A stretch of 64,000 bases of DNA from Flavobacterium flabelliforme. Lineage in GTDB: Bacteria > Bacteroidota > Bacteroidia > Flavobacteriales > Flavobacteriaceae. The first letter of the stretch is position 1. Each line of letters starts with the position of its first letter. Both the position numbers and the translations under genes were made by a program. Positions 10,116-36,285 of this stretch are shown in pieces. The notes under the pieces are model-generated. The model made no database searches, was not told the origin of the DNA, and saw only the letters and a list, made by a program, of their open reading frames with translations. Where the stretch lies: contig NZ_JAGFBU010000001.1 in assembly GCF_017948675.1 (NCBI RefSeq), forward strand, positions 310,001 to 374,000, written 5' to 3'.

Positions 10116-10130
10116 TATTTTTACTGTTTT

Positions 10131-10172
10131 AAAAAAAAGAAGGCTATCAAATAATGATAGCCTTCTTTTTTT
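10131..10172. terminator. Bidirectional terminator between convergent genes
   Basis: GAAGGCTATCA (10139-10149) and TGATAGCCTTC (10155-10165) pair around the loop AATAA. They are extended by an A-run on the left and a T-run on the right, so the hairpin can end transcripts from both strands (scpA and the lysozyme-like gene). Confidence 0.9.
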
Positions 10173-10187
10173 ATTCTATATACTATT

Positions 10188-10829
10188 TTAAATATTTTTT
10201 GCTTTTGCATTTACGTCAGCAACAATGAATGAAGTATCATAGCCACCAAACATTTTCATATAACTTCTTATTGAAGTTCCATAGGCATCCGTAAAATTGC
10301 GTTTTCCATTGTAACGAAAGAATTTCTTTACAGAACCAGCACCACCAAGATGAGCAGCTGCTAATATTCCTGATTCTGTAATGCGAAGACCATTCATAAC
10401 AGTACCTTCGTATTTTTCAATTTCATTTTTTAATTCCCATTTATTCTTAGCTAAAAGAGCCAAAAAAGCTTTTTCTTGCAATTCAGGACTATTCAGAAAA
10501 GCAACTCTATCATTAATACCTACAGATTTTAATGTTTCAATACCAAATTGGTATTTTCCCATATAACCTAAGGAATTAATTTTTTTGTATTTACTTTCAG
10601 ATTCTTTAAAGCCAACTGCTTCTCTGAATCCAACAAAGAAATTACCAGTAAAAGGGATACTTAAATTAGTGTACTCCTCCGCTTCTTGAGATGGATATAA
10701 GTAGTGTGTACCATCTTCTTCATTTATTAGAAACCAGGGGTGGGTTTCTAAATTAGCAGGTTTAAAACCTAAACTTAAAAAAACTGTAATAACAGTTAGA
10801 CTTGTATAAAAATACCATTTCTTTATCAT
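10188..10829 (-). CDS. Secreted lysozyme-like (transglycosylase-like) protein
   Basis: A 213-residue protein with an N-terminal hydrophobic signal/anchor (KKWYFYTSLTVITVFLSLGF). Its core resembles SLT/lysozyme-like folds: FREAVGFKESESKYKKINSLGYMGKYQFG, with Glu in GFKES as the likely catalytic acid, followed by a TESGILAAAHLGGAGSVKKFF motif typical of phage-type lytic enzymes. It probably acts on peptidoglycan in the periplasm. Activity is inferred from motif resemblance only. It has its own promoter element at 10876 and is separate from the DUF2279 gene upstream. Confidence 0.65.
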   Translation of the reverse strand: MIKKWYFYTSLTVITVFLSLGFKPANLETHPWFLINEEDGTHYLYPSQEAEEYTNLSIPFTGNFFVGFREAVGFKESESKYKKINSLGYMGKYQFGIETLKSVGINDRVAFLNSPELQEKAFLALLAKNKWELKNEIEKYEGTVMNGLRITESGILAAAHLGGAGSVKKFFRYNGKRNFTDAYGTSIRSYMKMFGGYDTSFIVADVNAKAKNI

Positions 10830-10875
10830 AAATTGTTTTTCTTCAAACGCTGTCCCGTTATGAAATTTCTACGTG

Positions 10876-10883
10876 CAAAGATA
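10876..10883 (-). promoter_or_regulatory. -7 promoter element of lysozyme-like gene
   Basis: The minus strand reads TATCTTTG followed by CACG, an exact TAnnTTTG match, 46 bases upstream of the start. A small palindrome CTGATAATCAG lies upstream at 10901-10911. Confidence 0.5.
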
Positions 10884-10925
10884 CAATAAAATTATTTATA
10901 CTGATAATCAGATAGTTAAAGTTTT

Positions 10926-11843
10926 CTAAAAATAGATTAAGTGGTATTTTACATCGTTAAAACGCTTAAACTCAATTGTTGGGGCTGGAACCTTAATAGT
11001 ATTTATAACAGAAAAAAGAGTTTTAAGTAAAGAAGAATTTGTGTTAATTTTTGTAAGATTAATATCTAAACTTAGATAAAACTGCCTAAATGGCCTTGTA
11101 CCAGTTGAAGAATAAATACTATTATTTTTTTGATTTGCTGAAATCATTACTTCTGCTCCATAACCAACAGCCAGATTTAGCCATTTAGGAATTTTAGTTC
11201 CTTTTGCAAAAGAATATAAATTAAAGGAAAGCCAATATGTTTGACCATTATAATCCTTTAGAATTTGTTCAGAAAAAGAACTTCCCAAAACATCAGGTCT
11301 TAAATCAGCATATTTTGTAGTGTGAAAAGAGAATTTTGGGGTTATACGTTGTTCGTTCCAGATTAACTCTTGTGAAACATATAAAGCCGTTCCCGAAGCA
11401 TTCGCTATAATATCTCCAGTAGAGGCTCCCCATTGTGATGAATATCCATCTAATACCTCAACAGCGGTAAGAAATACAAATCCCAAACCCGATCCGTAGA
11501 GTAACTGTTTTCTCTTAGAAACTCCACTCCATTTTAGCATTTCTGAACTCAATCGACCCAAATGGTAGGAAGAAAATGCATGCCCTGCTTTATCCATTTG
11601 TAGCCAGTCTGAATTGTCATTTATAAAATGAAAATTTGATCTGGGATAATCAGCATACCAAAGTTGATTTAAACCGATCAAAGTTCCCGCACCAATTGCA
11701 ATTTCTGAAATAATAACAGTATTTTTTCTGATATGATTTAAAGAATCTGATGGCCTTAATGTATTTTCAAATGGACTCTTTTGAGAATAGCCCATTTGAA
11801 AATATATTAAAATAAAAAAAAGAAGTGGTACTTTAAATTTCAA
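10926..11843 (-). CDS. DUF2279 (YfiM-like) family protein, exported
   Basis: A 305-residue protein with a signal peptide (KVPLLFFILIYFQMGYSQ). A DUF2279 core contains DKAGHAFSSYHLGRLSSEML, then a hydrophobic GSGLGFVFLTAVEVLDGYSSQWGASTGDIIANASGTALY stretch; the Lys/His and Asp-Gly-Tyr residues are conserved in this family. The C-terminal half looks beta-rich. The family is uncharacterised and is probably at the outer membrane or periplasm. It starts 2 bases after the mltG stop, so it is surely the last gene of the dapF-GNAT-mltG unit. Confidence 0.8.
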   Translation of the reverse strand: MKFKVPLLFFILIYFQMGYSQKSPFENTLRPSDSLNHIRKNTVIISEIAIGAGTLIGLNQLWYADYPRSNFHFINDNSDWLQMDKAGHAFSSYHLGRLSSEMLKWSGVSKRKQLLYGSGLGFVFLTAVEVLDGYSSQWGASTGDIIANASGTALYVSQELIWNEQRITPKFSFHTTKYADLRPDVLGSSFSEQILKDYNGQTYWLSFNLYSFAKGTKIPKWLNLAVGYGAEVMISANQKNNSIYSSTGTRPFRQFYLSLDINLTKINTNSSLLKTLFSVINTIKVPAPTIEFKRFNDVKYHLIYF

Positions 11844-15946: not shown

Positions 15947-17674
15947 TCATGTATTTATATTTAAATTATTTTCTAGTTTTCCGTATCGACTTCCTAACTT
16001 ATTTTTCAATCTTTGTTTTGATTTCTTTATCGCGTCAATGGTAACACCTAACAATTCAGCTATTTCACTATTACTAAAATTAAGTTTTTGCAACAATAAA
16101 ATACGCATATTAGAATCGGTAATTTCTTTAAATTCAGATAAAATCATTTGATAAAAATCAGGAAACTCTTTTTTAAATTCCCTTTTAAAGAGTAACCAAT
16201 TATTTTCTGTCATCAAATGAGACTCTAATAGAGCAGTTAATTTTCCGTTTTTTTCTTCCAAATAATAGGAAGAAGAGTGTTGAATAGCACTTATTTCACT
16301 TTTCAATTTCTTAATTTGAATATTCTTATTTTTTAAATAATCAATTTGCGTGTTTAAATTTTCATTTGCCTCCGACAATTTTTTTTCCATTTCAAGCATA
16401 TTCATCTCTATTTGAATTACCTTTTGATTGTATTCTAACTGTCTATTTTTAATTTTTCTTTTAAAATTAAAGTAAATAAATAAAGTTAAAAACATAATTA
16501 GTAAAGCAGTAATCAAGTAAATATTTTTAAAAAATGATTCGTTTTGATATTTCAGTTTAGAAAAATTTATTTTCTGCTCGAATTTTGTCTTCTTTATATT
16601 CCAGTTTGCTGTACTAACAGCCATTTCTCCGTCAGTATTTCTTAAGGAATCTTCTAAGGTTATTAATTGGCGTCTAAGTGCTAATTCTCCTTCAGTCTTA
16701 TGCTGTTTTTGCATAATTGATAATTGAAGCTTAATTATTTTATATTCTGAAACATTAAAATAAGATTTTGATTTCGCAATATATGTTGCTTTGTTAAGAA
16801 ACTTTTCTGCCATTTCCAATTCATTACAATCAAGATACAGCTCCGATAACAAAATGGATGCATACATTGTATTTTTATCGTTTTTGCAACTTTCTGATAG
16901 TAAAATATCTTGATTTATTAACGAAATTGCTTTTTTAAGATTCCCTTGTTTTTGGGATACTAATGCCAAATATCCTAATGACTTAGCGTAACTTAATGTG
17001 TCTTTAATTTGTTTAGATAAATGAGCAGTTCTATTAAAATAATAAGCGGAGTTCTTTAAGTCATTTTTATATAAATAATTGGATCCAATAGCATTTAAAA
17101 CATCTAAATATTCAGAAGAATTTTTAGATGTATAATTCTTGGCTAATTTTAAATAATATTCTGAATCTTCATAATCCCCAAAAGTCTGTAAAATCCAACC
17201 TATTTTTTTAAAAGATAAGCCAGGCAAAATCATCTCAGAGGGTTTTATACTTTGTATTTGTTTAATTACTTCTAACAAAATAGGTGTTAGCTTTGAATAG
17301 TCTCTGTAATTATACAAATAGTTAACATAATTAATTTGTGTCCAAATTACTATAGCTACATCTGTTTGTTTTTTGGCTAATGAGATCGACTTTAAAAAAT
17401 GAAAGTCACTAAATTTATTAATTTTATCAAAATCCTTCAGAGCACCATTGGCCAATAGTGCATGATAAACAACTTCGAATTCTGCAGTTTTTAATAAAGG
17501 ATTTAAATATTTTTTTAAAGAAAGACTATCTTTTCCAAAATTTTCATTTTGAAGCAGTATCTGTTCAATCGTTTTATTTTTATTCTTAAACAGCGTTAGA
17601 GTCGAGACCTGAGCCTTACTTTGTAATAATACAAAGACAAATAACAAAAAAAAGTTGCATCTTTTTTTATGCAT
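15947..17674 (-). CDS. TPR-transmembrane-HTH regulator
   Basis: A 575-residue protein. The signal peptide is CNFFLLFVFVLLQSKAQ. A TPR superhelix occupies ~residues 100-330 (helical pairs such as NSAYYFNRTAHLSKQIKDT and KSLGYLALVSQKQGNLKKA). A transmembrane helix (~382-402, NIYLITALLIMFLTLFIYF) is followed by a coiled coil (~408-470). The C-terminal helix-turn-helix LNFSNSEIAELLGVTIDAIKKSKQRLKNKLG is of the LuxR/sigma-70 region 4 type. The topology suggests a periplasmic sensor with a cytoplasmic DNA-binding domain, common in Bacteroidota. It lies directly downstream of the giant-protein locus and is a candidate regulator of it (inference). Confidence 0.82.
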   Translation of the reverse strand: MHKKRCNFFLLFVFVLLQSKAQVSTLTLFKNKNKTIEQILLQNENFGKDSLSLKKYLNPLLKTAEFEVVYHALLANGALKDFDKINKFSDFHFLKSISLAKKQTDVAIVIWTQINYVNYLYNYRDYSKLTPILLEVIKQIQSIKPSEMILPGLSFKKIGWILQTFGDYEDSEYYLKLAKNYTSKNSSEYLDVLNAIGSNYLYKNDLKNSAYYFNRTAHLSKQIKDTLSYAKSLGYLALVSQKQGNLKKAISLINQDILLSESCKNDKNTMYASILLSELYLDCNELEMAEKFLNKATYIAKSKSYFNVSEYKIIKLQLSIMQKQHKTEGELALRRQLITLEDSLRNTDGEMAVSTANWNIKKTKFEQKINFSKLKYQNESFFKNIYLITALLIMFLTLFIYFNFKRKIKNRQLEYNQKVIQIEMNMLEMEKKLSEANENLNTQIDYLKNKNIQIKKLKSEISAIQHSSSYYLEEKNGKLTALLESHLMTENNWLLFKREFKKEFPDFYQMILSEFKEITDSNMRILLLQKLNFSNSEIAELLGVTIDAIKKSKQRLKNKLGSRYGKLENNLNINT

Positions 17675-17736: not shown

Positions 17737-18025
17737 TTAAACTGACTTAAAACAAACTAATCAATTAAGATATAATTTACAAATAAAGTAATTACTATTA
17801 AAAAAACCTAAAATATAATATTTACATATTAAAAAATTATTAAAGTATAATTAGATTGTTTTTTGAAAATTGTAGTTAATTAAAAAACAAAAATCTAATT
17901 CAGCTATAAAAGTTTGAAAAGTGTGAATTAATAAAAATAAAAAAACCTTCAAAATCAAAAAAATGAAGGTTTTTAATAAAATTAATTTTAGTGCTTCAAA
18001 AAAGCTGATTTATATTGTTTGGCAA
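17737..18025. other. Intergenic region upstream of the regulator gene
   Basis: Very AT-rich, with no open reading frame I can support. It must hold the regulator's promoter, but no clear TAnnTTTG is visible. The only clear element is the terminator at 17941-17984. Confidence 0.6.
17941..17984 (-). terminator. Terminator of the collar/LamG operon
   Basis: AAAAACCTTCA (17941-17951) pairs with TGAAGGTTTTT (17974-17984) around a long A/T loop. On the minus strand it is followed by a T-run. It lies 41 bases after the lipoprotein stop and separates the operon from the regulator gene. Confidence 0.7.
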
Positions 18026-18415
18026 TTATTCGACTAATTCAAAATCACCTTGAGTAATATAGTTAAAAGAAGATTTATAATCAGTTCCTATTATGTAGGC
18101 TGAATTATTCCCTTCAGCTAATTCAATTGGATTGATTTGGGCGCCACTCATTGTAAAATTCATAGTGTATAAAACTCCGTTCACAGAGTAATCTACTTTT
18201 AAGGGTATTCCATTTGCATTAGACTTAGATGTCGTTTGAATTTTTACTGCATATTTTAAATTAGAATTATTACATTCATTAACAGAAATTGCTGTTCCAT
18301 CTGCGTGTACAAAAGAAATCTCAGAGGCATAAATAGTATTAGGAACTTCTTCAGTAGAACAACTAAAAAAGGTGATAATTAACAGTGCTAGAATAAGAAA
18401 ATATTTGTTTTTCAT
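18026..18415 (-). CDS. Small lipoprotein of unknown function
   Basis: A 129-residue protein with a lipoprotein signal peptide: KNKYFLILALLIITFFSC, with the lipobox Cys at residue 19 followed by STEEVP. The mature part is short and beta-rich (YSVNGVLYTMNFTMSGAQ, LAEGNNSAYIIGTDYKSSFNYITQGDFELVE). I recognise no family. Two bases separate it from the stop of the preceding 301-residue gene, so it is the last gene of the operon that starts with the tail-collar gene. It may be an anchoring or assembly partner (inference). Confidence 0.7.
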   Translation of the reverse strand: MKNKYFLILALLIITFFSCSTEEVPNTIYASEISFVHADGTAISVNECNNSNLKYAVKIQTTSKSNANGIPLKVDYSVNGVLYTMNFTMSGAQINPIELAEGNNSAYIIGTDYKSSFNYITQGDFELVE

Positions 18416-18417
18416 GA

Positions 18418-19323
18418 TTATTTCTTTTGTTTGATGATTATTTCTTTATTCAATCCTGCAATCTCAATTTGATATGTTCCCGATATTAAATTATTAAAAA
18501 AGGTTTCACCATTAATTATACTTTTCCTGTCAATAATAGCACCGTCTTTTGATAAAATTGTTTCTGCGTTATTCTCTGGATAAACCACTTTTATCTCACC
18601 ACCTGCATAACATACTACATCTTTTTTATAAAATTTTGCTGCTCCTACTTTCAAGTAAACTATCCATTTTTTTAAAACAGATCGATTCTCTGATAGTACT
18701 TGAAATACAACTGGTTTACTAAAATCTATACTATTTGATCCTGGAATTTGAATTGTATTTTCTAAATATAACTGGGCTCCAGTACTTAACTCGAATAATG
18801 AATTAAGTGTTGAAATATTTACTACATTATCAACAAAAATTGTAATATTAGATCCAACTATAGTTTTATTACTTATTTTCAAATCCTTAAATCCAAAATC
18901 AACAATATCAGCTTCATTGTTTAAAGTTGGACTTGCAAAACTGAAGGCTTGAAAAAGATTACCAAAATGTTTATTGTTTTCAAATACTTTTGAATTTTCT
19001 ACATTTTTAATTGAATTACTTACCGAATCATAAATTTTAAAACTGATATTTTCGTTCTCTGTATTAGAAAAAACAGTTAGATAAACAAAGTATTTTTTTT
19101 CACTTGCAACATAAAGTAATGAGGCAACACCGCGGCATTCTCCGTTTACGAAAGCTGCAACTTTATCATTGGGACTAGACAAATCTCTACCATCAACAGT
19201 AACAAAGCCTTCAAAAGACATGGTGTACTGAAAATTATTTTCATTTACTACCCAGTTTGGAGATTGCCCAAATGCATTTATACTTATAAAAATAAGTAAT
19301 AACGTATGTATATAATTTTTCAT
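18418..19323 (-). CDS. Secreted protein sharing a module with the giant LamG protein
   Basis: 301 residues with a signal peptide (YIHTLLLIFISINAFGQ). Residues ~22-130 (PNWVVNENNFQYTMSFEG, then DKVAAFVNGECRGVA, KKYFVYLTVFSNTENENISFKI) match a segment near the C-terminus of the giant neighbour (about its residues 2326-2430). A middle region ending in VFQVLSENRSVLKKWIVYLKVG resembles Ig-like/DUF5018-type repeats. The C-terminus (SGTYQIEIAGLNKEIIIKQ) loosely resembles the end of a T9SS sorting domain but is short. The start at 19323 fits the signal peptide; the longer frame would begin inside a strong hairpin. Confidence 0.75.
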   Translation of the reverse strand: MKNYIHTLLLIFISINAFGQSPNWVVNENNFQYTMSFEGFVTVDGRDLSSPNDKVAAFVNGECRGVASLLYVASEKKYFVYLTVFSNTENENISFKIYDSVSNSIKNVENSKVFENNKHFGNLFQAFSFASPTLNNEADIVDFGFKDLKISNKTIVGSNITIFVDNVVNISTLNSLFELSTGAQLYLENTIQIPGSNSIDFSKPVVFQVLSENRSVLKKWIVYLKVGAAKFYKKDVVCYAGGEIKVVYPENNAETILSKDGAIIDRKSIINGETFFNNLISGTYQIEIAGLNKEIIIKQKK

Positions 19324-19337
19324 ATTAAATTGATTAT

Positions 19338-19378
19338 AAACTCTTAAAAGTAGCAATAAATGCTACTTTTAAGAGTTT
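19338..19378 (-). other. Perfect 18-bp hairpin inside the operon
   Basis: AAACTCTTAAAAGTAGCA (19338-19355) and TGCTACTTTTAAGAGTTT (19361-19378) are perfect complements around ATAAA. It lies between the giant gene and the next gene. On the transcript strand it is not followed by a T-run, so it is more likely an mRNA stabiliser, processing site or partial attenuator than a full terminator. Confidence 0.7.
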
Positions 19379-19391
19379 AAAGATTTTACAA

Positions 19392-22300
19392 TTAATTTTT
19401 TATTACTTTAAAAGTTTCTATTTTTCCGTCAATTTTTATTTGTAAGATGTAAACACCTTGAGCAACATTAGGAACTATTTCTACAACACTTTCTCCAACT
19501 TCTACTTGCATATTTTTAGTGAAAAGCAGTTGATTTGCCATAGAAAAAAGCTGAATAGAAATTTCTTGTTTTTTATCTGCATTTAACTTTATATTTAATT
19601 GCGATTCAAATGAATTTGGATACACACTAACTTGGGTAGAAACTGCTTCTAAAACAATAGGTGACAACACAGTACCAAGTACTTCGTTCCCTTTAAAAAC
19701 AAATGATTTAGAAGTAGTTTTTTTATTGAATCCATCGCCAATAGAAAAAGATAACTTTTGAGGATTTTCTCCAAAAATTGTGATAAAACTAAGTTCTTTG
19801 CCATTCACTATTTGATTTTTGGCAATTCCTTTAAGCACTCCTCTATCATCATACACAAACAGTTCATTGTAGCCTTTTGGCAATAAAACAATAGCATTCA
19901 TATTCTCAGAGTATTGTTTAAACTCCGTTCTAATACCCTCTTGTTCGTTGTCTAAAACCCCTTTGGATATTGTTCTTGCGTTATCTTGATAATAAGGGTA
20001 TTTAAAAACCTGCTGTTTTGCTGACTTCATCATATATCCTTTTCCAGTTTCTAAGTACTTTAGTGTACCATGCCATCCGATAATTGGATCATATACCGCA
20101 AATAAATTTTGAGATTTTATTACATCACCATCAGTCGCTTCAAAATAAGCTAAAGCCTCATTAGTTGCTCTATTTGATGCTAGAGGATAAGGGAGCCAGT
20201 TCCAATTTTCTTTAATTGGAAAACTCCATTTAGATAAATCTACCCGTTTTCCTTTGATCTCTAGTATTTGCTCATTACTGGTATTAAACTTATACATTTT
20301 AGAAGCAAACAATCCTCCATTAGCACTTATGGATCCAGACCACTGGCTGTTTGAAGGTTTTGATAAGTCCTTAAAATAGGTTTCAAGTTGTGCCGGAGAA
20401 TGGCTCAAAATGCGGTTGGAAGTTTCTAGGACTAGACCTTTAGTTAGTTTGTTTATATCTGAAAAGCTCTCATCATAAATATTTAAGGAGGTCCATGTCC
20501 AGCCTTTATTAAGTACAATTTGTTGTTCAATCAAACCTGTATTTGAAAATATACTTGATTTACTTAAAGTTCCAATTACATCATTATCTAAAAAAGTAAT
20601 AGCCATTTTAGAATCTATAGTTGCTTCTAAGACCTTACCTTGTGAGGCATCCCATATTTTAAACCTCAACTCTTCACCAGAATTAGTATTGCTGTAAACT
20701 GTTAAAAAGACAAAATATTCTTTATACAACTCGTTATAAACAAGCTTAACTGTTCCTCTAACTTCATCCTTATGAAAAACTGCAATTTTATCATGAGAAT
20801 CAGTTGATAATAGTTCATCAACTTTTATTTTACCAATGATATTCATACTATAGTCAAAAAGCTTAGGATCTACAGACCAATTTGGTTCTTGAGCTAATAC
20901 TCTTAGTTTTAAGGGTAACTTTTGATCGTAAGCAAAATCTGTTTGCAAATATAAATTCTCTACATACTCCCCTACTGCGATTTCTTTATCAATAGTAGCC
21001 GTTACAATTATTTTACTATTAGGCTCAATAACACCCGATTTTTTAGTCAATGTTAACCAAGTTGGGATATTATTAATCGTAAAAGGATGTTTTTTTCCAC
21101 CTTTATTAATCAATGTAATTTCAAAAACGCTCTCTTTGTTACTGTTCTTTTCAATGTCAACTATTTCATTAAATCCTTCAGCAAACCAACTTACTTCATT
21201 GCGATTAACATAAGCAGTCCAGGTAACTGGAGATTGTTGCATGTTATTTACACCATCAAACATTCTATGAACGGTAATATCTAATGTCTGCCCTTCTAAT
21301 GATGCCCAATCGGTGACAATAGGAGCAATAATCATTTCACCGTCTTTGATTACATGAGTAGTCAAAAATTTAACTAACTGTCGTTCTGGCTTAATTGGTG
21401 GAACATCATTAGCATATTGCAGGTTTCCGCTACTTAAATTAGCATTACTTACCACTACAGTCTCATTAGCATCAGCATGATAATATCTTGGACCTTTTGC
21501 GATAGCTGGTTCAGGAACATTCATTCGGGCATACAATAGTAACCCAATACTTTCTACATCAACTTCATTGTAACTATCTCGTTCTATTTGTTCTAAATTA
21601 CGTAAGGTATTCCATAAACGAAATTCATCTAATTTACCGGTAAAAATTCTATCAACTGTTTCTTTACCTGATAGGTCACGTGATCCTCTAGCACCCATCC
21701 AAATCTTATTACCAGAGAAACCTCCAATTTCACTCATTGGGTTAGAAGATACCAGTTGTGTATCGACATACGTTTTTAATGAACCAACTCTATTGAATAA
21801 TAATGTTACATGATGCCACTGATTATCAGTAATGCTTTTTGTTGTTAGAACATATGTTTTGCCTTCACTTTGAAGAAGTAATGAACCCGAATTATTCATT
21901 TCAAGAGACCACTTATTAGTTAATCCATTACTTTGAACAACATCTGAACCATCTCCTTTTCCATTTGAGAATAAGGTTGCTTGTTGTGCAGTTCCTGTTT
22001 TAATCCAAAACTCCATCGTAGCATCCATTTCTTTAGTCAATTGAACAAAATTTACATTATCCATAACTAAATATTGTCCGCTATTAAAATCATAGGATGT
22101 TCCCTTAGGCTTAATGTCCCAGGATGCACTTATTGTAGCGTGTTTGAAACGAACTAAATCTTTAGCGATCAAACCTCGACCTTCATTCATTGGCCAATAT
22201 CCGTTTAAATTGGCTTCATTACCTGAAAGTTTAGCATACATTTTTGCATAAGACTCATCTCTACTTATAGTTTTATTCCAAAAACGTAGATCATGTAAAT

Positions 22301-25300
22301 TCCCTATAAAAGTATTTCCTCCAAGCACTAAAGGATTATTATTAGCAAACTGCATATTAGTATTTCCAGTACTACTACCAATTTCTGAATCATCTTCAAA
22401 GATTCTCAAATCACCGTTACTACTTTTATAAGTAAAAGAATAGTGATGAAATAAATTATCCTTTTTAATTTTTGCTAAAGTTGTGATTCCTCCTAATGTA
22501 AAAGAAAGACCATCTGTATCTTTGAGACCTATAGTTAACCCATCCTTTTGTGAAATAATAGAAGTTGCTGCAGTAGTTTTGGTTGCATTATTCATCCAAA
22601 ACTCAAACGTTAAATCACCTGGAATAATTTTTGGATCATTAATTACTACCGTATTGGCATTCCCTTCAAAATATAAAGAAACATTATGATCAATAGGCAA
22701 CTGATTTGTCTGACCTTTTATTTCAATAGTACTTACCGCTGAATTATAAGATATATTTTCGTTAAAGCTAATCTTTAAATCTTCACCTGTTCCTAATATC
22801 CCATTAATAGGTAGAGGAGTTCCGAAAAGCTGTGGAGAATGTAGATCTACTCTTCCTGTAATAATATCCGATATAAACTCGGTATCATTAGTACATGTAC
22901 TTCTAGCTCTTATCTCATAATTTCCATCTATTAATCCTAAATTAGCAATATCAAAACTATAAACTAAATTAGTAGCTGCACCAATTTCAGTTATTTCAGT
23001 TTCATTATTTGCTATAGCTTCATCATAAAAAGTTTTGCTACCGTAATAGGTTTTCAATCGGACCCAATTAGGGCTTGAAGCTAAACGATATTCTAAATCA
23101 ATTTTCTTGAAACTTTTAAATTTAGTACTATACCCCATCAAATTAATTGACAAAGGTTTTGTGGTTCCATCCGTGTTAAAAGCTTTTTCTTTATTAAGTA
23201 CCCAATTATTTAATGGTGCACTTACTATTACACTTGAACAAGAGGGCATAAAATGTGCCGAAATAAGAACTTCGGAACTTACATCCTCACCATCGCATAA
23301 TGATTGCAAACGAACTTTAATATCTTTATAATCATAAATATCTGAAATAGACTTTCCTAATGTCAATTTATAAACAACTGTTTTTCCGTAAGGTACACGT
23401 ACGATAGTACCATTGGGTTCAATATTTGTAATTGCATTGTTAGGATTTGTCGTATTGTCTACAATTAATAAGAAATCTGTGTCCGAACCTGTTGCGCTGT
23501 TGTTTTCTAATTTTAATTCAAATTCTGCTTTTTTGGTTTCTGCAATGTTACTTACATTATTATCAACAACAGAAAGTATTGGAACTTCCACTTTTTGAGT
23601 AGCAAAACTTAATTCTTCTCGCATATCATCAGCAAGCTCACTAATTATAGTTGCAAAAGGATTATAAGTATTTTTGTTATAAAAATGAGAAAGTTCAGCT
23701 CCTTCATGCGGACAAGAAGTTTTACCACCTTGTGTAATAAAAACAGGTCCGTTACCGTCAAATAAGTTTACTACATCAACACTTAAATAATTAGATTTAT
23801 CATTATCTTTTAAGGTATAACTTATTTGTGTAGTTGATGTACTTTCTTGATTATCAGTATTACTAATGTTTTGATTAGAACTACCTGACACGTTTTTTAT
23901 AAAACCAAGATCATTTAGTGTCATTCCAAAATCTAATGAGAATTTTTCATCTAGACTTAGTGTAATATTTAATGAACTTCCTTTTACAATTCCTGATTCT
24001 ATAGTTTTTGAAATTTCTCCAACACCTGCATCAAAAGAGATGTTTTCTGCAAAATTTTTATTTACTAAAGCCTTAAATTCAGCAAGATCATTTATTTTTC
24101 CTGCAGATGAACTAATATTATCAAGCAATCCTTTCTTGTAGGTATTACGATCATTTTTTGCGATATATTTACTTTTCTCATTATTCATAATAATGGTTCT
24201 CCATAAATTGATATCACTCTCGTATGAACTTTTCTTTTTTACTCCAGGATCCGTTTCTTTAATAACACCCTTGTTAATATTATCAATTATAGTTTGTATC
24301 TCAGGAATAATCGTGTTGAGAATATTTTTTTGTGAATACACAAAAAAGGTAGGTGAAGGTTCCTCTACAAAAGACATTGCTTTTTGTTTACTAATAAAAA
24401 CACTTTCTCCTTTACTGTTTATTAATTTAGAGGAATCTGGGCTTATACTGGTTTTTGTCGCCTGTACATCAGCATAGGAACCATAGAAATAGTTTGAGGA
24501 ATTCCCTATATAAAGATCACCATCAGAGCCATCAAAACTAGGATCATCACTTGTAGAAATGGTTTGATTAAAGGTATATGTTTTGGTTAAAGAACTACCG
24601 AATTCTGACGAAGTAGTTAATCCTATTGAACCACTTACGTCAAGAATTGTTTTTACTTCTGTAACTGGCCCAAGTAAACCACCACCAAAAGCAAATGTTG
24701 CTCCTAAAGAAGTTTTTATACCAGCACTTAATTCATTTGAAATCGAAATCATTTCATCTGTAGTCACAGAAAAACTTTCACCCTTGTTTATGGATGCAAA
24801 ACTATTTGACCCAGGAGGATCTCTTAAAATGATATCAGGAACAGTAGGTCCTTTTGTTACAAATGTTTTACTACCATCGTCTTTTCCGCCTAAAATAATT
24901 CCTATTGGTTTAAAATTCTTTACGTTATAATCCTTTTCATTTAGTCTATACTTTAAAGTACTTGTAATTTCAAATGGAGGAGTTATTGAAGGTACTCCTG
25001 CTTTAAAAGTATAGGTAAGCTTATTGCCATCTACAGTTACATTTTCTGAATTTACTAAAGCAAGATTATTGTTTTTAATTAACTCACCATCAGTTACGGG
25101 AACTGAAACTTCAACAGCTGGTAAACTATTTTCTAATGGATCCTTATTGACATATCGTTCAAATCGATTCATTACAATTTTATAAGGATGAAATTGAGAA
25201 TAAACAGGATTAGTAAAACCATCTGTTGAAATAGATTCTTCTTTCCCTAATTTCACTGTTAAATCCGAAGTTTGTTCAATCACCTCTAATTCTGGAATAG

Positions 25301-27866
25301 CTCTGTAAGTAAAACTTTTTTCGTAATGATAAGGTTTTCCTTTTATTGTTTTTTCTACACTCTCATCTTTATATACATATTCTGGAATTTTTGAATCTGG
25401 AATTTTTGAAAAATCGAACTCTTCCCTCGCTTTTAAAATCTTAATATCTTGAGAATTATTTACAATAAATAAATCTTCAGGCTCTACTTTATATTTCAAA
25501 GGCATCACAGATATTCTATACTCACCAGAGGCTACATTTGTTGTGAAACTATAGCTAGTTTCGGGTGTGGCAGATGCACCATTTGGCTCATATCCAAAAT
25601 TAAATTTAGCTTTTCCAATATTGTTTTTAGCACTAATTTCAAGTGTTTTTGTAACTCCAAGATTTGTAACGGATTTTGTCACTAAACCAGATTCACCAAA
25701 TCCAATAGGTTTGGCTGCCTCTACGGTTCCGCCTACTACTTTACCAACCGCCACAACCCTTGTAGTGTCAATAAAACAAACAGGTTCATTAAAGTCTTCG
25801 AAAAACTCCTTTAAGTCATTTGTATCTGCAGGGAAACGACCATTATAGGTAAATTGATGTCCCTCTTTTTTTACGGTAATATAATGTTTACCTATTGGTA
25901 CACTAATATCAAATTCTCCTTTACTATCGGTTACAACAGGCAGATTATTTGCATCTAATACAATATTTCCGTCTATATATACATTAGCTCCTTCTGTAAA
26001 AATGTTAGCATAAACATCTAAAAAATCATCCGATTTATCTGTAGGAGTTCCAGCATCATTTTTCCAATATGTTCCTTTAGAAAATTTTTCACCATTAATT
26101 TCATAATAATTATACCCTTCATCTAATATATTGTTTCCTCCAGATATAAAATTACTATTGGAGCCTTTTCCATATAGGCTAACATAGGAAGGAAAAACAT
26201 CACGCGTATCAAATTGTACCTTTCCTTTAAAACTAAAAGAGGATTGATCTATAAAATCAATTTTATTGACTACCTCTGATCCTTGTCCTAAGTATACTAA
26301 TTGTTGAATAGGGTCAAATTTATGTTGTCCGTATAAAGGTGTAATGTTATAAGATTCCCCAGTACCTGAATATTGTATCGCTGTAATTTGATAATTTCCT
26401 TTACTATCTGTTACGCCCAAGATACCTAATTGAGAGGTAGAAGGATAATTTTCTGCAGCGGTCTCCCAAGTAACCCTATCTTCAGCGGGTTTTTTATCAT
26501 CCCATAATTTACCATGATTTTTATTGTAAGTAAAACCATTCCTAGATAAATCATAAGCATAAGCACCCACTTTTTCATTAGCTCTTAGATATGAAACCAT
26601 TTTAGAATCGTTTCCACTAATAAAACGGGAATAATCCGTTCGAATTGTAGCTGCCTCCAATGGCATTTTCCAAATTCTAACTTCATCAATATAAAAAGCA
26701 TATCCTCCTCCTATTTTTATACTATCCCAAACTTTACCTTTAAAACTCGTTGTAGCAGTAGGAATAGTAACATCAAAATACGGAGCAACATAAGCACCAT
26801 CAACTCCTCTTAGTTTACTATCCACCTCTGTTTTATAAGATTGATTAATTGGTCTACCATTTATATATAATAATGGAATTTTCCCTTCATTTAATACTAT
26901 TGAAAAATGAACGAAAGAAGTATTGAAGTCAGCCATCTTAACCAGAACATCATTACCTCTTGAATTTATTTTTCCTGAAGGAAAATAATTCATCAAAGTA
27001 TATTTATCTCCCCCAATAGTAACATCCATTGAATTACTTTGCACATTAAGCTTTACTGTAGCTTCAATAGTTTCGATCGGATTAGTACTTTGAATATTAA
27101 ATAATTTAATAGCTGGTTCAGCATTACTTGTAAATGCTATTTTTGGTTTTATCCAAGCTTGAAAAGTAGCTGAATTTCCTATTGTTGTACTTAAATTCTC
27201 TAGACTAATAAAAGTTGTAGCTGGAATAAGCAGCGAACTACCTTCACTTAATGCGCTTCCGCTAGGAGTTGCAGTTACAATAGCATCTTTTACAGGATTT
27301 CCTCCTTTATAACTTATATTACCCGTTACAACTGCTGTAGGATTTCGATAACCTATGCCTGTAATAAAAGTGTTATACAAACTTGATATAGCACTCACAC
27401 CTTCAGCTTGTACTTTATATTCGTATAAAACACCTCCTTCAACATATTTATCTTCATATGTGGTTTCAGTAGGAGAAAGGCCAACCACTAATGTAAAAGG
27501 TTTTTTATTGAGTTCTGTAAAGACTCTACGGTAAATCTTTATACTTTTTACTAAATTAATATTTGCTTTTAAATCCCAATTAATTACTACTTTATCACCA
27601 AAAAACCCTTTTGACACGTCAAAAGATTCTTCTGCGAAAGTGTTATATATATAAAGAACATCCCATGGGAAACGAACATCAGCAGGCTGAAGAAGTCGTA
27701 TATCGCTTCCTTTTTTTACTCCCAAAAAAGGAACACCAACCTGTATCGTATATCTATCATTTTGAATAGCTTGTGAAACTGGGACTACTTTAGCCCCTTT
27801 ATTATTCTGGGCCCACAGTCCTGTTACCAGAAAAAAGAGTCCGAGTGCTGTTAGTATTTTTTTCAT
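19392..27866 (-). CDS. Giant multi-LamG surface protein with T9SS sorting domain
   Basis: 2824 residues, all in one frame. Signal peptide at 1-20 (LTALGLFFLVTGLWAQ). LamG/concanavalin-like domains lie at ~210-420, ~1735-1900 and ~1930-2120, each with an FxxWxK or FEFWM strand and an LRFWN/FRLWN/VRIWK motif. Carboxypeptidase-regulatory-like segments are near 185-205 and 540-680. A BACON/Ig-like stretch lies at ~2250-2325, the module shared with the next gene at ~2326-2430, and a GWTWTSLN/ENWNWLPYPL region at ~2440-2620. The type A T9SS C-terminal domain (~2745-2824) starts VSVYPNSFES and ends FKVIKN. It is predicted to cross the outer membrane by the type IX system and stay at the surface. LamG domains suggest glycan or protein binding; function is unknown. 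Confidence 0.85.
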   Translation of the reverse strand: MKKILTALGLFFLVTGLWAQNNKGAKVVPVSQAIQNDRYTIQVGVPFLGVKKGSDIRLLQPADVRFPWDVLYIYNTFAEESFDVSKGFFGDKVVINWDLKANINLVKSIKIYRRVFTELNKKPFTLVVGLSPTETTYEDKYVEGGVLYEYKVQAEGVSAISSLYNTFITGIGYRNPTAVVTGNISYKGGNPVKDAIVTATPSGSALSEGSSLLIPATTFISLENLSTTIGNSATFQAWIKPKIAFTSNAEPAIKLFNIQSTNPIETIEATVKLNVQSNSMDVTIGGDKYTLMNYFPSGKINSRGNDVLVKMADFNTSFVHFSIVLNEGKIPLLYINGRPINQSYKTEVDSKLRGVDGAYVAPYFDVTIPTATTSFKGKVWDSIKIGGGYAFYIDEVRIWKMPLEAATIRTDYSRFISGNDSKMVSYLRANEKVGAYAYDLSRNGFTYNKNHGKLWDDKKPAEDRVTWETAAENYPSTSQLGILGVTDSKGNYQITAIQYSGTGESYNITPLYGQHKFDPIQQLVYLGQGSEVVNKIDFIDQSSFSFKGKVQFDTRDVFPSYVSLYGKGSNSNFISGGNNILDEGYNYYEINGEKFSKGTYWKNDAGTPTDKSDDFLDVYANIFTEGANVYIDGNIVLDANNLPVVTDSKGEFDISVPIGKHYITVKKEGHQFTYNGRFPADTNDLKEFFEDFNEPVCFIDTTRVVAVGKVVGGTVEAAKPIGFGESGLVTKSVTNLGVTKTLEISAKNNIGKAKFNFGYEPNGASATPETSYSFTTNVASGEYRISVMPLKYKVEPEDLFIVNNSQDIKILKAREEFDFSKIPDSKIPEYVYKDESVEKTIKGKPYHYEKSFTYRAIPELEVIEQTSDLTVKLGKEESISTDGFTNPVYSQFHPYKIVMNRFERYVNKDPLENSLPAVEVSVPVTDGELIKNNNLALVNSENVTVDGNKLTYTFKAGVPSITPPFEITSTLKYRLNEKDYNVKNFKPIGIILGGKDDGSKTFVTKGPTVPDIILRDPPGSNSFASINKGESFSVTTDEMISISNELSAGIKTSLGATFAFGGGLLGPVTEVKTILDVSGSIGLTTSSEFGSSLTKTYTFNQTISTSDDPSFDGSDGDLYIGNSSNYFYGSYADVQATKTSISPDSSKLINSKGESVFISKQKAMSFVEEPSPTFFVYSQKNILNTIIPEIQTIIDNINKGVIKETDPGVKKKSSYESDINLWRTIIMNNEKSKYIAKNDRNTYKKGLLDNISSSAGKINDLAEFKALVNKNFAENISFDAGVGEISKTIESGIVKGSSLNITLSLDEKFSLDFGMTLNDLGFIKNVSGSSNQNISNTDNQESTSTTQISYTLKDNDKSNYLSVDVVNLFDGNGPVFITQGGKTSCPHEGAELSHFYNKNTYNPFATIISELADDMREELSFATQKVEVPILSVVDNNVSNIAETKKAEFELKLENNSATGSDTDFLLIVDNTTNPNNAITNIEPNGTIVRVPYGKTVVYKLTLGKSISDIYDYKDIKVRLQSLCDGEDVSSEVLISAHFMPSCSSVIVSAPLNNWVLNKEKAFNTDGTTKPLSINLMGYSTKFKSFKKIDLEYRLASSPNWVRLKTYYGSKTFYDEAIANNETEITEIGAATNLVYSFDIANLGLIDGNYEIRARSTCTNDTEFISDIITGRVDLHSPQLFGTPLPINGILGTGEDLKISFNENISYNSAVSTIEIKGQTNQLPIDHNVSLYFEGNANTVVINDPKIIPGDLTFEFWMNNATKTTAATSIISQKDGLTIGLKDTDGLSFTLGGITTLAKIKKDNLFHHYSFTYKSSNGDLRIFEDDSEIGSSTGNTNMQFANNNPLVLGGNTFIGNLHDLRFWNKTISRDESYAKMYAKLSGNEANLNGYWPMNEGRGLIAKDLVRFKHATISASWDIKPKGTSYDFNSGQYLVMDNVNFVQLTKEMDATMEFWIKTGTAQQATLFSNGKGDGSDVVQSNGLTNKWSLEMNNSGSLLLQSEGKTYVLTTKSITDNQWHHVTLLFNRVGSLKTYVDTQLVSSNPMSEIGGFSGNKIWMGARGSRDLSGKETVDRIFTGKLDEFRLWNTLRNLEQIERDSYNEVDVESIGLLLYARMNVPEPAIAKGPRYYHADANETVVVSNANLSSGNLQYANDVPPIKPERQLVKFLTTHVIKDGEMIIAPIVTDWASLEGQTLDITVHRMFDGVNNMQQSPVTWTAYVNRNEVSWFAEGFNEIVDIEKNSNKESVFEITLINKGGKKHPFTINNIPTWLTLTKKSGVIEPNSKIIVTATIDKEIAVGEYVENLYLQTDFAYDQKLPLKLRVLAQEPNWSVDPKLFDYSMNIIGKIKVDELLSTDSHDKIAVFHKDEVRGTVKLVYNELYKEYFVFLTVYSNTNSGEELRFKIWDASQGKVLEATIDSKMAITFLDNDVIGTLSKSSIFSNTGLIEQQIVLNKGWTWTSLNIYDESFSDINKLTKGLVLETSNRILSHSPAQLETYFKDLSKPSNSQWSGSISANGGLFASKMYKFNTSNEQILEIKGKRVDLSKWSFPIKENWNWLPYPLASNRATNEALAYFEATDGDVIKSQNLFAVYDPIIGWHGTLKYLETGKGYMMKSAKQQVFKYPYYQDNARTISKGVLDNEQEGIRTEFKQYSENMNAIVLLPKGYNELFVYDDRGVLKGIAKNQIVNGKELSFITIFGENPQKLSFSIGDGFNKKTTSKSFVFKGNEVLGTVLSPIVLEAVSTQVSVYPNSFESQLNIKLNADKKQEISIQLFSMANQLLFTKNMQVEVGESVVEIVPNVAQGVYILQIKIDGKIETFKVIKN

Positions 27867-27875
27867 AATTACAGC

Positions 27876-28760
27876 TTATAATTTAATAATATAATTTACA
27901 CCGTAGTTTACTGGACGCGTTTCTGTAGTACCCGTATTAGCTGTATTTCCCGTAACATTATGGGAGTGATTACCTGCAGGCAACAGCGTACCTAGGTTTT
28001 TTACATCTACCTCACCCTTGGTAGAATCTATACCTGAAGCGGTAGTACTTTCATTCCCAGTAGTATTACGTGAAAGTCCAGTGAAAGAACCATTAGTGTG
28101 ATTGTGTTCTCCGGTTGTTGATGTAGTCAAACTTACATTATGCAAATGGCTTTTTAAATCATCTTGTTGTACCGTTTTTAAAGCCGGTCCTGTTTGTCCT
28201 GAACCAGCAGTACCAGTACCTCTAAGGAACATACCTAGTAAATTGGGTGCGTTTGAATTTCCTAACATTGCGATTAAATCAGTAGCTGTGTTTGGCAAAG
28301 GTTTTCCATCACATAAAACCCATCCTTGCGGGGCTATAATTCCTATAAAAGGCATAATACTACCTGTAGGAACGCCATTATTTGCAGAAATAGCATAGGG
28401 AACGTGGCGTAGAGGCTCGTCAGAAATTAGCTCATCGCCTTTTTCAATTTTAAGAGAAACGACTTTATTTGCAAATAATGCATTATTTACAGCCGTAGGA
28501 TCTACTACATCTGAAAAAACACCAAAAGCATCCGTTGTCAAATTTTTTGTTACAGAATAGATAACCTTTTGAATACTTGATGCGTCAAGGTAGTAGAAAG
28601 TAAATTTAAGATTTATTGGTTGACTTACGATAGCCGTGTTATTTTCACCACGAGCAATTCCTTGTATTGCAATTCCAGCTTGAGATACTGACGTTTGAGC
28701 GAAATTCGCTGTTATAGCACAAAACAAAAATAATGTTGATAATAGTAATTTTGATTTCAT
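27876..28760 (-). CDS. Secreted protein with phage tail-collar domain
   Basis: 294 residues with a signal peptide (KLLLSTLFLFCAITANFAQ). The N-terminal region includes GIAIQGIARGENN, a leader module I associate with Bacteroidota tail-fibre-like proteins. The collar domain (~128-185) reads GSIMPFIGIIAPQGWVLCDG, then PNLLGMFLRGTG. The Gly/Thr/His-rich end contains repeated HxH pairs (HLHN, HNHT, HSHN) and finishes TRPVNYGVNYIIKL, as in T4 gp12-like tail-fibre tips whose HxH motifs bind metal. A signal peptide and the absence of other phage genes argue for a bacterial surface role. It is the first gene of the operon, 9 bases before the giant gene. Confidence 0.85.
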   Translation of the reverse strand: MKSKLLLSTLFLFCAITANFAQTSVSQAGIAIQGIARGENNTAIVSQPINLKFTFYYLDASSIQKVIYSVTKNLTTDAFGVFSDVVDPTAVNNALFANKVVSLKIEKGDELISDEPLRHVPYAISANNGVPTGSIMPFIGIIAPQGWVLCDGKPLPNTATDLIAMLGNSNAPNLLGMFLRGTGTAGSGQTGPALKTVQQDDLKSHLHNVSLTTSTTGEHNHTNGSFTGLSRNTTGNESTTASGIDSTKGEVDVKNLGTLLPAGNHSHNVTGNTANTGTTETRPVNYGVNYIIKL

Positions 28761-34908: not shown

Positions 34909-36285
34909 CTATTGAAGAACTCGATTGATCTGAGTGAAATTTTTCTGATAATATTTTTCTTTAGTAGATGAAATGATAACTCCACTACTCACAGAGGAAT
35001 GAATAAACTTAATTTCACCTTCATTAACTTCAACAACCATTCCTACATGGTTAATTTGACTTCTTCCATTTGTTTTAAAGAAAATTAAATCGCCTTTTTG
35101 TGCTTCTTCTGTATTAATTTTAGTTCCAATTCCAGATTGTTCTCGAGAAGTTCTTGGCAACTTGATATCAAAAGCTCCAAAAGTTGTACACATAAGTCCT
35201 GAGCAATCAAACCCAGATTTTGTTGTTCCTCCTGTGCGGTAACGTGAACCTATATTTTGTGAAGCACTTTCAATTAATTCATCCAAAAACTCATGATCAA
35301 ATGTTGGTTTTATTGAATTATTAAAATCAATCTTAGTATTTTGTATAGTTGCATTAGCATCTGCTACTGCATTATTTTCTAAATATAGATTAGCAGCAGT
35401 TATACTCAATTTATGACCTACACGGAGTTTATTTTTTATCTCCGGATTCTGTCTTTCTAACTCCTTTACTGTTATTCCATATTCTTTTGCAATTGCAAAT
35501 TTTGTTTCCTTTGGCATCACTTCTCTAATTATAGTATTCAAAGAATTATTTTCTTTAATAACATCTATAGAAGCTACCATATTAGTATCATTTTTTATCT
35601 CCTGATTACTTGTATCCATTGCTATTTGAGCAACTGCATTTCCAGGTATAAAAACTTTTTGCCCCACTTTAAGAGATTTAACTCCTAATCCTGGATTGAC
35701 TTTGTCAAAATCCTTAATGGTGATTCCGTATTTTTTTGTAATGGAGTATTTAGTTTCTTTAGGTAAAACTTCCCAAATAAAAGTAGATGATGACACAACT
35801 GGAGTGGCTGCTATTTCTTGCTTTATTACAATATCTTTTGTTGATTCATATACAACATCAACAGGAATTGCGTTAGCTGGAATATTTATTTTTTGCCCAA
35901 TTTTTAAATCTGAAGAAGCAAGAGTTGGATTAATTTGATTTAATTCTTTAATACTTATTCCATATTGCTTTGCTATACCATAAAGGGTTTCTTTAGCTTG
36001 AACTTGATGTTCTTTTCCAGTATAATTTTGAACAACTTGACTTGAAGTGGTAACTGTCTTAGTTGAAGAGGCAACAGGAATTAATAATATTGAATTTAGT
36101 TTTAGAAGATTTTTAGCTTTGGGATTTAATTTTAAAATCGCACTTTGTTTTACTTCATATTTCTCTGCAATGCTGGATATAGTTTCTCCTTTTACGATAG
36201 TGTGTTTTGTTATTTTTTCTTGTGAAAAAAGCACGATGCTATTTAAAAAAACTAGTATTACAATTACTCTTAAACTCATATTCAT
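34909..36285 (-). CDS. LysM-repeat NlpC/P60 cell-wall peptidase
   Basis: 458 residues: a signal peptide (LRVIVILVFLNSIVLFSQ), four LysM domains (~26-70, ~91-137, ~170-214, ~256-298, each with a GETI/KETLYGIAKQYG-like turn and a KVGQKIxIP end) and a C-terminal NlpC/P60 domain (~330-458). The catalytic Cys is in GFDCSGLM near residue 361 and the His in INHVGMVVE near residue 411. It should bind peptidoglycan through LysM and cut stem peptides in the periplasm or at the surface. It has a long 624-base region upstream. Confidence 0.93.
   Translation of the reverse strand: MNMSLRVIVILVFLNSIVLFSQEKITKHTIVKGETISSIAEKYEVKQSAILKLNPKAKNLLKLNSILLIPVASSTKTVTTSSQVVQNYTGKEHQVQAKETLYGIAKQYGISIKELNQINPTLASSDLKIGQKINIPANAIPVDVVYESTKDIVIKQEIAATPVVSSSTFIWEVLPKETKYSITKKYGITIKDFDKVNPGLGVKSLKVGQKVFIPGNAVAQIAMDTSNQEIKNDTNMVASIDVIKENNSLNTIIREVMPKETKFAIAKEYGITVKELERQNPEIKNKLRVGHKLSITAANLYLENNAVADANATIQNTKIDFNNSIKPTFDHEFLDELIESASQNIGSRYRTGGTTKSGFDCSGLMCTTFGAFDIKLPRTSREQSGIGTKINTEEAQKGDLIFFKTNGRSQINHVGMVVEVNEGEIKFIHSSVSSGVIISSTKEKYYQKNFTQINRVLQ

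Follow-up and report, generated by a model that had tools for sequence, protein, structure and literature searches.

Why should a bacterial chromosome encode, directly ahead of a giant secreted protein, a protein that resembles the tip of a phage tail fibre and appears to carry a secretion signal? The question is raised by a 64,000-nucleotide stretch of Flavobacterium flabelliforme DNA (assembly GCF_017948675.1, contig NZ_JAGFBU010000001.1, positions 310,001–374,000 of the forward strand; hereafter the window), in which four genes on the minus strand encode a tail-collar protein with a Pfam Collar match (27876–28760; 294 amino acids, aa), a giant protein with LamG domains and a type A sorting signal of the type IX secretion system (T9SS) (19392–27866; 2824 aa), a third protein named P3 (18418–19323 from its ATG; 301 aa) and a lipoprotein with a lipobox named P4 (18026–18415; 129 aa). 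The mechanically called open reading frame (ORF) of P3 begins further up, at 19356, and its 301 aa were counted from the ATG. We found that the collar–giant order recurs far beyond chance among relatives of the giant, and the genes form a conserved cassette. Judging from the sequences, we see about even chances that this is a surface-assembly cassette, in which a trimeric, metal-bearing collar tip works with the T9SS-exported giant, and P3 and the lipoprotein assist.

A conserved collar–giant cassette

A sequence-only reading of the window had described four exported proteins whose genes all point the same way and are separated by 9, 68 and 2 bases (collar–giant, giant–P3 and P3–P4, respectively), and the ORFs, coordinates and gaps were all confirmed. 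Its description of the products was borne out as well. The collar protein, said to have a signal peptide and HxH motifs, scored 31.9 bits with Pfam Collar (PF07484; cut-off 24) and has HxH pairs at residues 205/207, 219/221 and 265/267. The giant, called a multi-LamG protein with a T9SS type A domain, matched Laminin_G_3 in three stretches (E = 4.6e-33) and TIGR04183 at its C-terminus with 38.7 bits (cut-off 23). The module said to be common to P3 and the giant (giant residues 2319–2407) showed 39% identity over 89 aa (E = 4e-16), and the fourth protein has the lipobox FFSC expected of a lipoprotein; this lipobox and the signal peptides of the cassette proteins were assigned by eye. The absence of phage neighbours also stood, as no cluster of phage structural genes was found among the cassette and 15 neighbouring genes (5 scanned by Pfam and 10 by PHROGs). 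One gene (34912–36285) matched phage tail and lysis PHROGs; LysM families are among these matches, and it is therefore read as probably a cellular cell-wall peptidase. The window genome contains one Collar-domain match and one copy of the giant, and SprA, the T9SS component searched for, is present (SprA_N, E = 3.1e-147).

Relatives of the giant were collected by scanning 84,980 species genomes with the giant core (a four-row alignment of residues 680–1560). The scan gave 94 relatives, and the best 80 were kept, representing 78 loci; together with the window and locus L023 these make 80 loci, which were chosen by similarity and are not a random sample. Loci L024 and L025, on the same contigs as L071 and L092, stand outside this count. 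Twelve of the 80 end too early for the upstream test, and a collar gene was found upstream of the giant on the same strand in 52 of the 68 testable loci. Among the four loci with broken or shortened giant ORFs (L047, L050, L060 and L074), L050 was scored as having no collar and the other three as having one, and three loci with the collar gene at a contig end (L052, L053 and L063) were scored as collar loci. The collar–giant gap ranges from -4 to 61 bases in 49 of the 52 pairs; the exceptions are L060 (2295), L074 (-77) and L075 (126), the first two being loci with broken giant ORFs. A P3 gene comes after the giant in 56 of the 64 loci that could be tested and, among collar loci alone, in 46 of 47, the sole exception being L074, where the giant ORF is split and P3 comes after its second half. 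P4 was found in at least 24 loci, 23 of them collar loci, counts that are a lower bound as one sequence was used in the search. Gene order and spacing are kept across Flavobacteriaceae, Sphingobacteriaceae, Cytophagales and Prolixibacteraceae.

On a tree of 58 giant cores, collar presence is explained by two changes over the 54 scorable rows, and by three when the four unknown rows are taken as collar-less, against a mean of 14.1 after shuffling; the tree was rooted at its midpoint only. In a class-wide sample of 295 genomes, giant relatives, many of them distant, were present in 18. Some loci carry additional copies: in L028 a second collar–giant pair (18332–22712) follows the first, and in L024/L071, L040, L051 and L075 two tandem collar genes stand ahead of one giant.

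The association was also examined from the collar side, as the sequence-only reading had proposed for Flavobacteriaceae, and the co-occurrence was upheld. The collar protein had some match in 34 of 249 Flavobacteriaceae genomes and a match over at least 270 of its 294 residues in five. These five hold six near-full-length collar proteins (G000, G248, two in G185, G102 and G123), and all six lie within the cassette. In G102 and G123 (loci L021 and L022) about 8.6 kb between the collar gene and P3 reads N, and the presence of a giant there is inferred from the size and the flanks. An ORF of 3367 aa in L021 that seemed to fuse collar, giant and P3 was rejected as an artefact of reading through the N stretch. 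Another genome, G002, has a giant and a P3-like gene without a collar gene. In the class-wide sample, where at most eight candidates per genome were scored, 163 of the 295 genomes matched the collar profile at E ≤ 1e-6, mostly with the N-domain alone among the matches listed; among the same matches the full-length collar protein was found in G000, G365 and G473, and an interrupted one in G526. In G365 (L124, 4732–13383, gap 471 bases) the collar gene precedes a SpvB/FG-GAP/TcdB-mid/RHS protein ending in a Tlde1 domain, and in G473 (L125, 5661–11828, gap 7 bases) it precedes another SpvB/FG-GAP/TcdB-mid/RHS protein; each of the two genomes also encodes distant relatives of the giant, on other contigs. 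In L130, the gene just ahead of a collar-less giant (9507–11333) encodes a protein that ends in a Peptidase_S74 fibre chaperone domain; its start matched the collar N-domain weakly (18.0 bits) and was not among the matches at E 1e-4.

The distance matrices of collar, core and P3 from 38 loci agree with each other (Mantel r of 0.79, 0.82 and 0.73, with 0 of 2000 permutations reaching each), and the collar's nearest neighbour is among the top three of the core in 25 of the 38 loci. For each of the three genes, the cassette of a Cyclobacterium (L062) has its closest relatives among Flavobacteriaceae cassettes, a pattern that suggests transfer as a unit. In L039 and L058 the three genes point to differing nearest neighbours.

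The collar protein and its partners

The collar protein appears to consist of a signal peptide (residues ~1–21), a domain found in Bacteroidota (N-domain, ~22–127) and a gp12-like tip (~128–294). The earlier likening of its collar/HxH domain to phage short-tail-fibre tips was supported by alignment of the C-terminal half, up to its end, with both T4 proteins: profile residues 130–295 align with the gp12 tip (1ocy, E = 4.8e-12) up to the C-terminal strand, and residues 131–295 with the gp37 tip (2xgf, E = 7.5e-11). The HxH sites of T4 gp12 and gp37 bind metal. Every one of the 52 aligned collar sequences has H205 and H207. Three HxH motifs were counted in 45 of them, four in one, two in five and one in the remaining sequence, as compared with an average of 0.22 motifs after shuffling. 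The sequences differ most in the loop that separates HxH pairs two and three (222–264), where the mean pairwise identity is 0.13; the values elsewhere are 0.31 (signal peptide), 0.43 (N-domain), 0.49 (collar part), 0.39 (from HxH pair one to pair two) and 0.59 (end of the protein).

Among 410 phage records with a match, no match reaches 80% coverage of the collar protein. The phage matches are confined to residues 100–294 (among the 20 matches listed of the 410 records), and five viral contigs match from residue 96 onward. As the phage and viral matches listed lie from residue 96 on, the N-domain is read as the Bacteroidota part and the tip as phage-type, and the protein looks like a chimera of an N-domain of Bacteroidota secreted proteins and a phage-type tip. 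The monomer model had a mean predicted local distance difference test score (pLDDT) of 77.3 and a predicted template modelling score (pTM) of 0.44, with residues 222–251 below pLDDT 50. Its top Foldseek match was the gp37 tip (E = 9.9e-4), with template modelling scores (TM-scores) of only 0.23 and 0.31. It also matched C24 of Bizionia argentinensis (PDB 6ov6; E = 2.0e-3), again with low TM-scores (0.20 and 0.23); C24 is, by the title of its report, a putative prophage fibre tip (Pellizza 2020, cited in PMC9478572). No T9SS signal was recognised in the window collar protein with NCBIfam models.

The giant is composed of a signal peptide, LamG domains, a core (residues 680–1560), the module shared with P3 and the T9SS type A signal (2748–2824). 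PF18962, the Pfam model of the same sorting region, stayed under its cut-off (23.5 against 27), and TIGR04131, the type B signal, was not found in the giant or P3. The giant gave no match up to E 1 with the TANFOR domain (TIGR02542) or with SpvB, TcdB-mid and RHS domains, and no toxin domain was found in the window giant or P3 by domain scans. None of the four cassette genes matched PorP/SprF, nor did the gene that follows the cassette. The giant is 2805–2954 aa long in 43 of the 48 complete giants of collar loci, two others being 3099 and 3121 aa and three broken or short. When the 46 giants judged complete and longer than 2700 aa were aligned, few gaps were seen and identity was even along the protein (0.29–0.56 per 100 residues). 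As judged from the few gaps, the even identity and the nearly constant length, the giant is unlike a repeat adhesin.

The model of the giant core (pLDDT 81.4, pTM 0.68) has immunoglobulin (Ig)-like and mixed folds, and its fold-search matches, which concern mainly model residues 178–864, were chiefly of Ig and macroglobulin type. With regard to class II fusogen and complement-type folds, the best structural matches, HAP2 (Z = 11.0) and complement C4 (Z = 10.7), cover a single Ig-like domain (model residues 747–862), which suggests a widespread fold rather than kinship. Two segments of the giant (~1035–1100 and 1285–1340) that flank a helical part of the core have alternating hydrophobic residues and partly low model confidence. 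A pore-forming reading of them found no support, as they ranked only 6 and 12 in an amphipathicity scan within the protein. No pore-forming domain was prominent among the fold-search matches listed for the core, and a search for MACPF gave matches in 2 of 120 Flavobacteriaceae and none in the window genome.

P3 consists of a signal peptide, the module shared with the giant, a middle domain and a conserved C-terminal module of 75 aa. In collar loci (n = 46), 34 P3 proteins have 299–324 aa and 12 have 397–998 aa. The last 75 residues contain an invariant Cys in 16 aligned P3 proteins and match Ig-like and prealbumin-like families weakly. Comparison of the P3 end with the giants' sorting signal by hhalign gave 20.6%. 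Among the 249 Flavobacteriaceae genomes, matches to the C-terminal module at E < 1e-10 come from the five collar genomes and from no others, so that its reading as a new sorting signal of general use is not supported; a further 38 genomes have weaker matches (E up to 1e-3). NCBIfam models recognised no T9SS sorting signal in the short P3 proteins of the window and L023. A type A signal is present in the long P3 of the collar locus L085, whereas the P3 of L082 stayed under the cut-off. The P3-like genes of collar-less loci carry a type A signal in L025 and a type B signal in L097, L132 and L135; the one in L132 (16583–17716) is followed by PorP/SprF, and the one in L135 (14452–18917) contains cadherin repeats. 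By its appearance, a further gene of L135 putatively resembles the PorP/SprF of L132.

Just after its lipid Cys, P4 reads CSTEE (STEEV), consistent with the surface-export rule of Bacteroidetes lipoproteins (PMC5080379), which calls for a polar or basic residue followed by two acidic ones at this place. Of 25 P4 relatives, 20 were parsed for these residues, and 19 have two to three acidic residues at positions +2 to +6; one has none.

Function of the cassette

The surface-assembly reading can be set out as a series of putative steps. The four proteins would enter the periplasm via Sec, as suggested by their signal sequences, and the giant would then cross the outer membrane by the T9SS through its type A signal. 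The collar protein may fold as a trimer holding metal in stacked HxH sites as in T4 gp12 and gp37, and may join the giant at the surface as a target-touching head, with the variable loop between the second and third HxH sets possibly determining which target is bound. P3 and the surface lipoprotein P4 probably help to anchor or cap the assembly. The simplest guess for how the collar protein leaves the periplasm is that it rides out with the giant. The sequence-only reading had taken the collar protein for a tip, trimerisation or chaperone partner of a giant delivered by the T9SS; this interpretation is partly supported, by the linkage across genera, the gp12/gp37 alignment, the type A signal and the presence of SprA, and of tip and chaperone the tip is judged the likelier role. 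That reading had also named as contrary evidence a collar gene that occurs without the giant in most relatives. This does not hold within Flavobacteriaceae; elsewhere, the collar genes of G365 and G473 precede SpvB-RHS proteins.

Several observations weigh against a surface assembly of collar protein and giant. The collar gene stands without this giant beside it in G365 and G473, genomes of other families, and the giant stands without a collar gene upstream in 16 of the 68 testable loci, which are mostly Bacteroidales and Prevotella types and also include L079, L092 (Flavicella), L094, L097 (Reichenbachiella) and L050, where the giant is cut short; the median giant length is 3147 aa in collar-less loci, fragments included, as compared with 2858 aa in collar loci. 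The nearest neighbours of collar and core are identical in only 15 of the 38 loci compared, and agreeing distances are also expected from shared descent alone. In addition, the collar protein and the window P3 are without a recognised T9SS signal, the collar model is middling with low TM-scores to gp37, and the variability of the collar loop can be explained by a mere lack of constraint.

The strongest rival, to which we assign a fairly low probability, holds that the collar protein stays in the periplasm, where it would act as a chaperone or assembly factor that maintains the giant in an export-competent state. Its signal peptide without a recognised T9SS signal, its production just ahead of the giant and the S74 fibre chaperone domain of the L130 protein in the same slot would agree with such a role, whereas the conserved HxH motifs together with the hypervariable loop fit a binding tip better, and we know of no chaperone activity of collar domains. 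It is improbable that the cassette is an attack system, in which the collar head would steer the giant to a target so as to damage its membrane or bring in a toxin. Collar relatives do lie directly ahead of SpvB/TcdB-mid/RHS proteins in G365 (L124, with the Tlde1 end) and G473 (L125), and the giant core has the two low-confidence stretches of alternating hydrophobic residues; however, the domain scans of the window giant and P3 gave no toxin domain, the C-terminus of the giant is a sorting signal, those stretches are not singled out in the amphipathicity scan and the fold-search matches listed brought no pore-forming domain to prominence.

We give equally little credence to a SprB-like adhesin for motility or biofilm formation, with the collar gene as a mere passenger. 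The type B P3 relatives after the giants of L097, L132 and L135, and the PorP/SprF gene that comes next in L132, are in line with it, but the window giant has a type A and no type B signal, PorP/SprF is missing from the cassette genes and the next gene, and the nearly constant length of the giant is unlike that of repeat adhesins. That the four genes are co-expressed and their products act apart is the least probable of these explanations: the retention of collar-less giants in other lineages would fit it, against which stand the order and spacing kept over the four groups from Flavobacteriaceae to Prolixibacteraceae and the one cassette (L062) that seemingly moved as a unit.

The proposed surface assembly shares features with several known systems. 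With the T4 gp12/gp37 tips and phage collar proteins (PF07484) the collar protein has in common the C-terminal half (130–294), the HxH motifs and the C-terminal strand; unlike them, it has a signal peptide and the Bacteroidota N-domain in place of the fibre, no cluster of phage structural genes among the scanned neighbours and no phage record covering 80% of it. The giant resembles T9SS type A cargo in its Sec signal and TIGR04183 match, with SprA in the genome, and differs from such cargo in being accompanied by other exported proteins, two of which (the collar protein and P3) are without a recognised T9SS signal. SprB-type adhesins (type B, PorP/SprF) are likewise giant surface proteins with small neighbour genes, and some P3 relatives in other lineages are type B, one of them followed by PorP/SprF; the window giant differs from them in its type A signal, LamG domains, nearly constant length and collar partner. 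The polymorphic toxins of Bacteroidetes (the TANFOR class, PMC7073777, and SpvB-RHS) are likewise large secreted proteins, and collar relatives precede two SpvB-RHS proteins, but the giant is without a TANFOR, SpvB or RHS domain and ends in a sorting signal.

The two SpvB-RHS loci and the S74 protein of L130, three loci only, hint at a wider scheme. As a tentative and rather doubtful proposal, Bacteroidota might share an arrangement in which an N-domain joined to a phage-fibre head (collar/gp12, perhaps S74) is made ahead of a giant secreted protein (a T9SS LamG giant or a SpvB-RHS toxin) and gives it its target. No publication joining "tail collar domain" with "type IX secretion" was found, nor any published description of the collar–giant cassette among the matches listed, as judged by titles and the starts of abstracts, in searches whose scope fell short of most subscription journals. 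If the surface-assembly reading is true, phage receptor-binding tips act as parts of cell-made surface structures, the T9SS gains cargo complexes that include proteins without a known signal, and a class of Bacteroidota "tail collar" genes otherwise readable as prophage debris is explained; were the exchangeable scheme true, the phage tip would have been recruited to aim surface machines that the cell itself builds. The cassette is compact, is found repeatedly in cultured species, among them Flavobacterium hydrophilum and a Lutibacter, and comes with clear predictions.

Transcript elements and neighbouring genes

The cassette together with its downstream terminator (17944–28760) is likely one transcription unit. 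An intrinsic terminator lies 3' of the P4 gene on the minus strand (17944–17971; 8-pair stem, loop of 12 and T-run), and is missing from a terminator list restricted to loops of 3–8. A hairpin of 19 pairs between the giant and P3 (19337–19379, minus strand; -25.8 kcal/mol, z = -8.2) has no T-run after it. Sixteen loci have giant–P3 gaps of at least 28 bases between ORFs, of which 14 were folded and two, L047 and L079, were left out; hairpins with z ≤ -3.6 were found in 11 of the 14 (among L026–L078 and the window, and not in L034, L058 and L076), their sequences differing. Nine collar–giant gaps are 40–61 bases long, measured between ORFs as called; none of the eight folded reached z of -3.6, the closest being -3.52. 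The difference between the two boundaries (11 of 14 against 0 of 8) has a chance probability of 0.0005.

The five neighbours scanned by Pfam are rpoB, rpoC, two aconitases and a permease, and PADLOC and Rfam scans gave no match. Of 45 loci with enough flank, 16 (L023, L027, L033–L038, L041, L047, L066, L067, L069, L073, L080 and L082) have a response-regulator-like gene close to the collar gene, on the opposite strand in one; it was called by motif, with domains confirmed in L023 only, where a histidine kinase precedes it. No such gene was seen near the cassette in the window, where the same strand downstream of the cassette (15947–17674) encodes a tetratricopeptide repeat protein with a weak C-terminal helix-turn-helix match, a possible regulator.

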